A stretch of DNA of 6,161 nt from Rickettsiales bacterium TMED211 (GTDB taxonomy: Bacteria > Pseudomonadota > Alphaproteobacteria > TMED127): contig NHJI01000033.1 in the NCBI GenBank assembly GCA_002169685.1, positions 1 to 6,161 on the forward strand. The letters are read 5' to 3'. Positions 2,667 through 6,161 of the stretch are shown here, piece by piece. A program made the translations under genes and the position numbers. The notes below the pieces were generated by a model. That model searched no databases. It had not been told where the DNA came from and saw only the letters and a list, made by a program, of their open reading frames with translations. Positions within the stretch are counted from its first letter, which is position 1. Every line of letters starts with the position of its first letter.

Positions 2667-4109
2667 ATGAGCTGTTCTTTGATGTGGTTTAGGTATGATT
2701 TAAGAGTAAGCGATAATGAAGCTCTAATAGAAGCATCAAAAAACCCAGCTTGTATTCCTCTATATATTCTTGATACTAATTTTTTAAATTTAAAAACAAC
2801 AAGTGATTTCCATTTGAATTTCTTGAATGAATGCATAGAGCAACTTGCAGAAAATTTAAAAAAAAAAGATATTCATTTAAATTTTTACAAAGGAAAAACT
2901 ATAGAAGTTTTAAAAATGTTAATAGAGAGTAATTCAATAAAATATGTTTATTCGAATAGAATATTCAAAAATTATTTTTTTACATCTCTTGATAAAGAGA
3001 TCAGTAATTTCTTTAATTCTATTGGAGTTAAATGGATACAAACAAATCAATTTGGAATTCAACTAAATCATAGAGTGAGAGGGACATGGTCATCTAAATG
3101 GAACTCATTTATTTCAGCACCTATTGGAAACAACCAAATAACAAAAACTACATTTATACGAAATGAGAATAGTTCCTTCAAATCTATTATTCAAAATCCA
3201 ATAAAAATTATTCAACCTGGAGGGGAGAATAATGCTTTGAAACTTCTAGATTCATTTATAGAAGAAAGACATTTTAATTATTCCAAAAAAATATCAAGTC
3301 CACTCACAGCAGAAAATTCTTGTTCAAGACTCAGCCCACACTTAGCATATGGAACAATTTCGTTGAAAAGGGTTGTCCAAACGATTAACGATAAAATAAA
3401 AGGGTCAAATGATGTAAATAAATCATCATTAAATGCATTTAAAAAAAGATTAGCATGGCATTGTCATTTTATACAAAAATTATATGACGATCCAAATATT
3501 GAAACAAAAAATATCCATACTTTGTATGATGGGCTAAGAGAAAATGATTTTAATGAGCTCTATTATACAAATTGGAAAGAAGGTAAAACTGGTTTTCCTT
3601 TTCTTGATGCTTGTATGAGATTTTTAAATCTTAAAGGTTGGTTAAATTTTAGAATGAGGGCAATGATAGTTTCATTTGCATCATATCAATTATGGTTAGA
3701 TTGGAAAGTTACATCAAAATATCTAGCACAAAAATTTACAGACTATGAACCCGGAATACACTATTCACAAATACAAATGCAATCGGGAACAACTGGGATT
3801 AATACACTTAGAGTTTATAACGTTATTAAACAATCCATTGATCAAGATCCTGATGGAGAGTTTATTAAAAAATGGGTTCCTGAATTAAGAAATTTACCAA
3901 AACATCTAATTCATGAACCTTGGAAAATTAATTATCTAGAAGAAAAAGAGTATAATTTTTCATTAAGTTTAAATTATTACAAACGAGTTATAGATAATAA
4001 AATTAATACCAAAGCTGCAAAAGATAAAATTTGGAAAATAAAAAAATCTCCAGAAGCGATGATGATATCAAAAGAAATTATAAAAAAACATGCAAGTTTT
4101 AAAAATTAA
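2667..4109 (+). CDS. Divergent DNA photolyase/cryptochrome family flavoprotein
   Basis: A 480-residue protein of the photolyase/cryptochrome family (FAD-binding, blue-light driven DNA repair or light sensing). Residues 1 to about 125 form the antenna-type alpha/beta domain, opening with [16 protein letters not shown] as in class I photolyases. The FAD-binding helical domain covers about 200-455: [13 protein letters not shown] (220-232), RLAW (261-264), [14 protein letters not shown] (305-318), GW-NFRMR (324-331), LDW (344-346) and [14 protein letters not shown] (394-407). The C-terminal RIW-type helix is present as KIWKIKK (454-460). Aligned by eye to E. coli photolyase, Trp277 and Trp359 are kept (Trp264, Trp346). 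Trp382, Trp384, Asn378, Glu274 and Met345 become Ile369, Met371, His365, Arg261 and Ala332, and no Trp stands at the Trp306 position. The usual NNGGWQW motif is replaced by an [11 protein letters not shown] stretch (361-371). The cysteines do not form the C-terminal cluster set of the FeS-type bacterial photolyases. The ATG at 2667 has no clear Shine-Dalgarno, but the start fits the family. It may be a photolyase, a cryptochrome, or an unassigned subgroup. Confidence 0.9.
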
Positions 4110-4154: not shown

Positions 4155-4182
4155 TAGACATAAGCTTTTTTAGTGTTATAAT
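4155..4182 (+). promoter_or_regulatory. Sigma-70-type promoter with extended -10, receptor gene
   Basis: TAGACA at 4155-4160 (five of six to TTGACA), a 16-base spacer, then a perfect TATAAT at 4177-4182 preceded by TG at 4174-4175, which gives an extended -10. Transcription would start near 4189, leaving a leader of about 20 bases before the ATG at 4210. The perfect hexamer, the extended TG motif and the close fit to the gene make this the most credible promoter in the window. Confidence 0.65.
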
Positions 4183-4193
4183 GTAACACTAAA
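4169..4193. promoter_or_regulatory. Zur-box-like palindromic operator
   Basis: A palindrome with perfect 10-base arms, TTTAGTGTTA (4169-4178) and TAACACTAAA (4184-4193), around a 5-base centre TAATG. The core closely matches the gammaproteobacterial Zur operator as I recall it (TGTTATAAT, one base, TAACA), with about 16 of 23 positions shared by eye. It overlaps the -10 hexamer and the expected transcription start, so a bound repressor would block RNA polymerase. Zur, a Fur-family repressor, uses zinc as corepressor, and the gene immediately downstream encodes a ZnuD-like receptor, which fits. The zur gene is not in the window. Another Fur-family regulator is possible, but the sequence is unlike the classical Fur box. 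Confidence 0.75.
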
Positions 4194-4199
4194 TTTAAC

Positions 4200-4205
4200 A
4201 AGGAG
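4200..4205 (+). promoter_or_regulatory. Ribosome binding site of the receptor gene (AAGGAG)
   Basis: AAGGAG lies four bases before the ATG at 4210, slightly close but a near-perfect anti-Shine-Dalgarno match. It fixes the start, and the protein then begins directly with a signal peptide. Confidence 0.8.
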
Positions 4206-4209
4206 TTAT

Positions 4210-6161
4210 ATGTTTAAAAATTCTTTTATTTTTTTTTCTATATTATTATGTGGTAATTATCTAAACGCTAATACGCTGGAATCTTTATTTACGGCACCAG
4301 ATGTATTTGTTACTTCAAAAATTAAGCCTTCTACTGACTTTGAGGGTGATAGAGGTAATATTTTATTTCATTCACATAACCTTGAAAAAAAAAGACAATA
4401 TTCAATTGGTGGAATGTTAAGTGACTTACCTGGTATTTCTTCACAAGGTTTAGGAAATGCAACGCGCCCGTTAATTAGAGGTATGTCAAATTCAAGAGTA
4501 AGAATTCTTCAAAATGGTAGCTCTTTAAGTGATGTTTCTGAATTTGGCGAAGACCATATTGTAGGTTATGACCCTATGTTAATTGATCAAATAGAGATTA
4601 TTAAAGGACCAGCTACATTATTATATGGTAATAATGCTTTTGCAGGAGTTGTTAATATTATCAATCCTCTAATCACTGTTGATAAGCCTTCACTTGGCGA
4701 AGTTGTTCAAGCTGATTTTGGTTACAGTACCTCAGGAGGCGAACTCAAATCAGCATTGAAAGGAAATAAAACAGTGGATAATTTTACTGTTAGAGGAATG
4801 GGAAGTTTTCTGAGTTCTAGTTCTTATGATTTAGCCAATACCTCTGAAGTTCAAAGTAATTCTGCTAAACAAAATTTTACTGGTGGTATAGGTCTTACAT
4901 ACAACGATGGAAGAAACTTTTTTGGGTTTTCTGCTGATAAGTTAGAGGCTGAATATAGTCTACCCGGTGGAGAAGGTGTTGAAAATAGAACTACACTTAA
5001 TCCTACAAGAAACACATTCAACTTTAAATCAGGAATATCCATTAACTCTGATTTATTTGAAAAAGTAAACATTGAAGGAACAGTTTCTGAATATAGTCAT
5101 GCTGAAAGGGTATTAGCTGATAAACATAACATAGAATTTTTTAACGATGCCTATGAATTCAAAACCTCCTTAAATCATAAATCCTTATTTTCCAATAATA
5201 CAGAAGGACTGATTGGCTTTCACTATCAAAACCTAGACCAAGGTGCTGAAGGTGATGAGGAAAGTCATTTAACAAAAACAAAAACAAATAGTTTTGGTTT
5301 TTTTGCATTAGAAAAATTTAAGTATAATTCTTTTGAAATAGATTTAGGTGGTCGTCTTGAATCAGTAAATATCAAAAATACTAGTAATGAAAAAGGTTTT
5401 TTCCCAGTATCTGTATCTTCTACTGTGAGAAGAGAATTCGTAGAAAATAATACTTCATTTATTGGGTTTGATTTTACTCAAAGAGCTCCTAATCCTGTTG
5501 AGTTATTTTCTGATGGTCCACACCATGCCCTTGAAAACTATGAAAATGGAGAGCTTAATCTAACCACTGAAAGTTCCTATAATTTATCTTTGGGTAATAT
5601 TTATAGTCAAGACCTGAATAGATTACATGTAGAGACATACTTCAATTATATTAACGACTTTATAGCTGCCGATAGAGACGGATCAACAGTAGCAGTTGAG
5701 GGTGAAGATTTTAATAATGTGATTCATGAACAATATAATGCAATGTTTACGGGTTTAGAAATTTCAGGTCAGTATAATTTTGCTAATGCAAATAATATGG
5801 ATTTTCTTTCAAATTTTATGATAGATTTTATGAAAGGTTATAAAACTTCAACAGATAAAGCGATAACAAGAATCCCTCAATCAAAATTAAATGTTGGTGT
5901 ACAGGTTTTAGGTGATGCGTTCGACTCTAATTTAAAATATAACCACTATTTTGATAAAGGTTTTCTTGGTCCACATCAAACCAGAACGGGTGGACATTCA
6001 CGTTTAGATTTTGATATTACAAAAGACTTTTCTTACTCATCTATATCTGGACATATTATGTTTTCAGCTTTAAACTTATTAGATGTGGTTGGAAGAAATC
6101 ATTTAGAATCAAAAAAAGATACAGTCCAACTTCCAGGTAGAAGTTTTAATTTCATGTTAAA
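4210..6161 (+). CDS. znuD: ZnuD-like TonB-dependent outer-membrane receptor, probable zinc uptake (3' end cut off)
   Basis: Outer-membrane active transporter, energised by TonB-ExbBD, probably importing zinc. The frame is open for 650 codons to the window edge with no stop. It ends just after LPGRSFNFML, the last barrel strand, so only about four or five residues are missing. Residues 1-20 form a signal peptide (hydrophobic core FIFFSILL, likely cleavage after LNA). A TonB-box-like DVFVTS lies at 31-36. The plug spans about 45-155: LPGISSQG (73-80), LIRGM (88-92), EFGEDHIVGYD (111-121), IEIIKGPATLLYGNNAFAGVVNI (128-150). The barrel follows, with ZnuD-like RAPNPVELFSDGPHHA (425-440) and TRTGGHSRLDF (591-601). 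Asp115-His116 match the plug Asp-His pair of neisserial ZnuD that I recall as zinc ligands; His438-His439 are further candidates. The long His-rich loop after the YGLP segment of neisserial ZnuD is missing: here YSLPGGEGVE (249-258) runs straight into the next strand. A Zur-like operator lies just upstream. Another metal or chelate remains possible. Confidence 0.9.
   Translation, partial: MFKNSFIFFSILLCGNYLNANTLESLFTAPDVFVTSKIKPSTDFEGDRGNILFHSHNLEKKRQYSIGGMLSDLPGISSQGLGNATRPLIRGMSNSRVRILQNGSSLSDVSEFGEDHIVGYDPMLIDQIEIIKGPATLLYGNNAFAGVVNIINPLITVDKPSLGEVVQADFGYSTSGGELKSALKGNKTVDNFTVRGMGSFLSSSSYDLANTSEVQSNSAKQNFTGGIGLTYNDGRNFFGFSADKLEAEYSLPGGEGVENRTTLNPTRNTFNFKSGISINSDLFEKVNIEGTVSEYSHAERVLADKHNIEFFNDAYEFKTSLNHKSLFSNNTEGLIGFHYQNLDQGAEGDEESHLTKTKTNSFGFFALEKFKYNSFEIDLGGRLESVNIKNTSNEKGFFPVSVSSTVRREFVENNTSFIGFDFTQRAPNPVELFSDGPHHALENYENGELNLTTESSYNLSLGNIYSQDLNRLHVETYFNYINDFIAADRDGSTVAVEGEDFNNVIHEQYNAMFTGLEISGQYNFANANNMDFLSNFMIDFMKGYKTSTDKAITRIPQSKLNVGVQVLGDAFDSNLKYNHYFDKGFLGPHQTRTGGHSRLDFDITKDFSYSSISGHIMFSALNLLDVVGRNHLESKKDTVQLPGRSFNFML

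Follow-up and report, generated by a model that had tools for sequence, protein, structure and literature searches.

Does the perfect inverted repeat lying over the promoter of a TonB-dependent receptor gene serve as the operator of a zinc repressor, and which other genes carry the same site in related genomes? The stretch of DNA analyzed, called here the window, is 6,161 nucleotides long. It includes a minus-strand gene for a PutP-like symporter, a gene for a short-chain dehydrogenase, a photolyase-family gene (2667-4109) and the receptor gene.

The palindrome and the receptor gene of the window

A sequence-only reading of the window had described perfect 10-base arms over a TG-plus-TATAAT promoter, and direct reading confirms them: TTTAGTGTTA at 4169-4178 and TAACACTAAA at 4184-4193, separated by the spacer TAATG (4179-4183). 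The features of the promoter are collected in Table 1. When the whole window was scanned, 4169-4193 was the sole perfect inverted repeat with 10-base arms and a loop of 0-8 bases. A bare inverted repeat is not very improbable (on average, a dinucleotide shuffle of the window contains 0.34 repeats of this size, and in 26 of 200 shuffles there is a comparable one with at least two G/C per arm). The significance of the palindrome derives from its conservation.

Table 1. Features of the receptor promoter and gene (positions in the window)
Feature	Position	Strand	Remarks
-35-like element TAGACA	4155..4160	+	five of six bases of TTGACA; ends 16 bases before the TATAAT hexamer
Perfect 10-5-10 inverted repeat, predicted Zur operator	4169..4193	.	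direct reading, uniqueness, matrix score
15-base core TGTTATAATGTAACA (7-1-7)	4174..4188	.	one mismatch to TGTTATANTATAACA; contains GTTA-N5-TAAC
Extended -10 TGTTATAAT	4174..4182	+	within the palindrome; hexamer TATAAT
Ribosome-binding site AAGGAG	4200..4205	+	direct reading
ZnuD-like TonB-dependent zinc receptor gene	4210..6159	+	truncated by the window end

The resemblance to a zinc-repressor operator, also proposed from the letters alone, holds: besides matching the 15-mer to within one base, the palindrome includes an exact GTTA-N5-TAAC, the proteobacterial Zur motif used in PMC4176598, which occurs once in the window, at 4175 (0.3 occurrences expected from mononucleotide shuffles). Like the E. 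coli Zur box GAAATGTTATA-N-TATAACATTTC given in PMC4219657, the 7-1-7 core of the window is of the form TGTTATA-N-TATAACA; unlike it, the window site has one core mismatch and divergent outer bases. It differs from the E. coli motif TRWNAYRWTATAWYRTNWCA at two positions. The full published E. coli 23-mer consensus was discarded as a match for the window, being weak (7 mismatches; shuffles, mean 8.6 and minimum 6).

The gene whose ATG stands 17 bases beyond the palindrome had been read as encoding a zinc-type TonB receptor. This is borne out by its plug domain (PF07715, Pfam), by ZnuD being its closest solved structure (1.1e-27; second best 3e-8) and by the retention of four zinc ligands. The PF00593 barrel is annotated (precomputed) on many of its relatives. 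The protein aligns with Neisseria ZnuD (4rdr) in two stretches, chain 57-256 and 339-741. The zinc ligands of the neisserial receptor are D99, H100, E340 and H499 (PMC4557270); their equivalents in the 4rdr alignment are D115, H116, E299 and H438 of the window receptor (numbering offset 14; the DH pair was checked by script, E299 and H438 were counted by hand). All four are invariant in the 19 rows of alignment A1, the window's own protein included. Unlike Neisseria ZnuD, with which it shares the TonB receptor type and these ligands, the window receptor has a low overall score. Among NCBIfam models ZnuD ranks first, at 206 bits against a cut-off of 950 (an exception-type model), so that the receptor is ZnuD-like and not a member of that named family; heme/hemoglobin and copper receptor models rank after it.

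The palindrome and the regulator in related genomes

Receptor orthologues are present in 21 of the 32 genomes, within one alphaproteobacterial order (that of genome G017); the record titles of these 21 loci, all from one genome-contig scan, read Rickettsiales or uncultured Alphaproteobacteria. Weak matches to other receptors were obtained in six further genomes and in some of the 21. Of the 21 copies, a contig end truncates one, and another, that of G019 (L140/L148, contig C27), is interrupted by stop codons towards its 3' end. In the closest relative, G001, the receptor is 83% identical to that of the window, and the same contig carries, upstream, a photolyase fragment with 77% identity to that of the window, separated from the receptor by two other genes.

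For each receptor the 200 bases upstream were scanned (89 bases for locus L005). The 15-mer TGTTATANTATAACA is found at no more than one mismatch in all 22 receptor promoters, the window included: the best upstream match is exact in 18, and carries one mismatch in four (window, L005, L011 and L017). The conservation before orthologous receptors that the sequence-only reading had called for is thus directly observed. Shuffled promoters gave no match at this threshold (0/420; 21 promoters, L005 left out). GTTA-N5-TAAC is exact in 20 of the 21 promoters scanned for it (L017 is without the motif, L005 was unscanned), and the exact 25-base palindrome of the window gave no match in the genome contigs searched. 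In the 20 relatives with sufficient flanks (window and L005 excluded), column information amounts to 1.7-2.0 bits throughout the palindrome, its centre excepted; outside it, high values are seen at the first T of the -35 (2.0 bits) and, at 1.0-1.5 bits, in a few columns that are mostly A/T. Among the 20 relatives whose upstream sequence reaches far enough, 15 have an exact TTGACA 9-10 bases before the core; in the window, TAGACA stands 13 bases before it.

A gammaproteobacterial matrix had been suggested for scoring, while the record titles place the lineage in the Alphaproteobacteria. With a weight matrix made from 20 orthologous promoters, window and L005 left out, 4170-4192 scores 22.3-22.5 bits, inside the 20.8-30.3 spanned by the training sites, and the second-best place in the window scores 8.7 bits.

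Fur-family proteins were found in 20 of the 21 genomes with znuD, of which 16 have three and four have two; G013 gave no match at all in the family-model search. The Zur-like class is the one that scores weakest to the Fur family model. The solved structures that its G010 member matches best, at 82-90 bits, are 7dh7 and E. coli Zur (4mtd), whereas the best Fur reaches 29; 7dh7, named there merely as Fur family, we take to be a Zur. Among NCBIfam models the same protein reaches 100.5 bits for Zur, below the cut-off of 167, and 21-29 bits for the Fur/PerR models.

The search for a zur gene, carried out in the relatives, succeeded: an orthologue at 177 bits or more is encoded in 23 of the 32 genomes (a raw count of 26 also takes in weak matches to other members of the Fur family) and in 19 of the 21 with znuD, G011 and G013 being those without. 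Eight zinc ligands are listed for E. coli Zur in PMC4219657; inspection of the alignment by eye shows that all 23 orthologues retain both site A (four Cys) and site B (His, Cys, His, Glu). The exact 15-mer is present in 19 of the 23 Zur genomes versus two of the nine others (Fisher p 0.0026, indicative only, since these are related genomes of unstated completeness). Three Zur genomes, G028, G030 and G032, are without a site at one mismatch or less. An operator at up to two mismatches precedes zur itself in nine of 23 genomes, and the other 14 zur promoters are without one. Because 16 of the 21 genomes encode three Fur-family proteins, we infer the identity of the regulator, which is very probably Zur at the receptor promoter.

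Targets of the palindrome and competing readings

In the 32 genomes the exact 15-mer TGTTATAWTATAACA has 40 occurrences, and its reversed control none. The 21 znuD genomes account for 38 of them, and in 36 the gene that follows is znuD, zur, COG0523, DUF1826, an ABC gene or the gene of a small membrane protein here called F2: of 36 mapped exact sites 34 lie at -40 to 180 bases before znuD, DUF1826, COG0523, zur, F2 or an ABC ATPase gene, and two further exact sites, placed by coordinates, lie at znuD promoters. One of the two exceptions is at a PepSY gene inside a zinc cluster (G005). In the other (L027:881-1516; G004:C7:6780) the exact palindrome is located where an alternative oxidase gene begins; an azurin/plastocyanin-like gene comes next, which may hint at a link to zinc or copper. 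Among genomes lacking znuD, exact sites occur in G027 only, at COG0523 and F57 genes. Sites with exactly one mismatch number 21 in the 21 genomes against 23 for the control (unmapped), 12 of the 21 being before core genes; as this class is at background genome-wide, the window site is credible through its orthologous position.

The expectation that the palindrome would also precede other zinc genes was borne out before zur, COG0523 and DUF1826, and failed for znuABC, which is nearly absent (1/21). DUF1826 and COG0523 genes had previously been linked to Zur (PMC2770081, PMC5786701). The COG0523 protein of L094 scores 585 with the ZigA model (cut-off 600). No ribosomal-protein paralogue appears among the annotated targets; several one-mismatch targets lie outside the annotation. 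The ABC run F8-F7-F11 encodes an ATPase, an FtsX-type permease and a DUF3299 protein. P. aeruginosa PA4063-PA4066, as described in PMC4542158 and PMC11481552, likewise has a Zur-box-linked ABC ATPase, a MacB/LolCE-type permease and a small third protein; the likeness to PA4064-66 is by gene order and families, and is to be taken as a resemblance. According to these sources PA4064-PA4066 is Zur-regulated; a place within a MacB-type exporter was argued for it later.

Palindromes also surround a ZigA-type COG0523 gene, the small F57 gene and a second COG0523 gene (L095:2443-5859, L087:2506-6854 and L182; in L087 together with a WD40 protein gene). Zur-type palindromes separate CobT-type cobalamin genes from COG0523 or DUF1826 genes in L080:3813-6212 and L103:1920-4490.

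We consider, with a probability of about 0.9, that 4169-4193 is a Zur operator controlling the ZnuD-type receptor. Since the same type of site precedes znuD, zur (in some genomes), ZigA-type COG0523, DUF1826, the small membrane protein and the MacB-like cluster, the window would represent one target of a zinc-starvation regulon. When zinc is sufficient, a zinc-loaded Zur dimer would occupy the palindrome, covering the extended -10 as well as the point where transcription of the receptor gene probably starts, and would thereby exclude RNA polymerase. At low zinc, Zur would lose the metal and leave the palindrome; the ZnuD-type receptor would then be made, and would move zinc over the outer membrane at the expense of TonB energy. 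That the window's own genome encodes a Zur, and that this Zur binds the palindrome, depends on zinc and represses the gene, we infer from sequence.

The palindrome could instead serve as operator for a different member of the Fur family (Fur, Mur or Irr type) or for some other metal regulator. Beside the Zur-like protein, 16 of the 21 genomes encode two further members of the family, and binding of pseudo-palindromes as dimers is also known for other metal sensors (review PMC6103462). This reading is very unlikely given that the palindrome resembles known Zur motifs and that it precedes genes of the zinc regulon, among them, in some genomes, the gene of the Zur-like protein. The sequence-only reading had allowed for a better score by some other regulator, and Fur did not provide it. 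In the receptor promoters the Fur box averages 7.5 mismatches at best, no better than the 7.2 of shuffles, in a scoring restricted to a Fur 19-mer. Still less credible is a mere promoter or RNA hairpin, such as a photolyase terminator, with no regulator involved. The repeat does lie about 60 bases past the photolyase stop codon and over the extended -10, and bare repeats of like size and make-up arise in shuffles, as stated above; but it is not G+C-rich, no T run follows it, its conservation is symmetric, two-sided and reaches past the -10, and the identical 15-mer precedes many unrelated genes with differing upstream neighbours.

A further reading accepts the Zur operator and assigns the receptor another substrate (heme, copper, cobalt or a metallophore). 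The modest whole-protein ZnuD scores, with heme/hemoglobin and copper receptor models next, speak for it, as do the tie of the Zur-regulated MacB-like cluster of P. aeruginosa to pyochelin-cobalt export (PMC11481552) and the CobT genes that G003 and G017 carry in divergent orientation to Zur-box genes. We hold it to be unlikely, since the four ZnuD zinc ligands are invariant in the receptors and ZnuD leads the next solved relative by a wide margin of E-values.

Inner-membrane importers and small membrane proteins

The importers sought in the 21 genomes were ZnuA, ABC-3 permeases, ZIP and NRAMP. ZnuA and an ABC-3 permease exceed the cut-off in a single genome, G003 (controls, 11/14 and 13/14). 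ZIP does so in none, with two weaker matches (controls, 8/14), and neither does NRAMP, with five weaker matches (controls, 7/14). The sole ZnuABC-like cluster, in G003 (L113-L115, contig C4), contains two consecutive ABC-3 permease genes. As an operator for its znuA gene, the best site is unconvincing: it has two mismatches and overlaps the first codons (L113:1438; script-called ORF from 1411).

In its operator the window is like the Zur regulon of Caulobacter crescentus (znuK, znuL), also alphaproteobacterial, in which, according to PMC4176598, Zur operators with GTTA-N5-TAAC overlap the -10 of TonB-receptor genes. Unlike in C. crescentus, the companions in this order are COG0523, DUF1826, F2 and the MacB-like cluster, and ZnuA/ABC-3 permease was not found in 20 of 21 genomes. 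The order also departs from E. coli in the near absence of znuABC and in having no ribosomal target among the annotated ones. The kind of operator is already known, and the ZnuABC-poor regulon is the more interesting part. Among the open-licence papers listed by the searches, judged by titles and the starts of abstracts, we found no description of this regulon.

What emerges is a zinc-starvation regulon open to testing in an order of uncultured marine alphaproteobacteria with small genomes (0.9-2.0 Mb of sequence). Zinc in the pelagic surface ocean is described as extremely low in PMC4771312, where zinc uptake by SAR11 and Roseobacter is scored by inner-membrane systems, e.g., ZnuA, ZIP and NRAMP. 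Almost all of the genomes studied here would, on such a criterion, count as being without zinc uptake, despite a Zur-linked receptor and a ZigA-type chaperone, and the regulon makes the question of the absent inner-membrane zinc importer directly testable.

Of the 18 genomes with a listed gene downstream of znuD, 14 have F2 directly there, at gaps of -1 to 14 bases, and F2 is probably made from the same transcript; DUF1826 comes next in 10 of these 14 genomes. F2 is a small Cys/His membrane protein of about 121 residues (L107:4214-4576 and 16 aligned relatives, alignment A2), in which H18, C21, C22 and P25 are invariant in 17 of 17 sequences. A word-based protein search gave eight homologues, and no Pfam family matched over its cut-off. 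Membership of Pfam MerC or MerT was rejected, with no such match among the 17 members, and so was Nodulin_late (E 1e-4 in 4/17 members, 23 bits against a cut-off of 30.4), which we judged to be a chance cysteine match. The AlphaFold model has three helices and a weak mean pLDDT of 64. Where F2 is apart from znuD (G009, G010 and G014), a one-mismatch palindrome lies 20-34 bases before it and ABC genes follow; in G014 this palindrome is common to zur.

A module of three genes, F5-F4-F6, is present in 13 genomes (F6 is missing from the G021 sequence), and in 12 of the 13 it starts 166-1201 bases downstream of a palindrome. F4 has an HMA domain, F5 belongs to no family, and F6 is a membrane protein with an invariant CC-x-x-P and weak Pfam matches only. 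We did not accept F6 as a MerT, as that match (E 0.0065, 1/12) is no better than those to COX3 (0.0039, 2/12) and DUF5083 (0.0035, 1/12).

Tentatively, and as a rather doubtful proposal, the Zur regulon of this order might have replaced ZnuABC, zinc crossing the inner membrane via F2, perhaps together with F4-F6, by a route in the style of mercury uptake; zinc import by F2 or F4-F6 is speculation. The F5-F4-F6 genes are seen at L102:1852-3186, L093:4811-6150 and other loci, and are divergent from znuD or F2 in several genomes.
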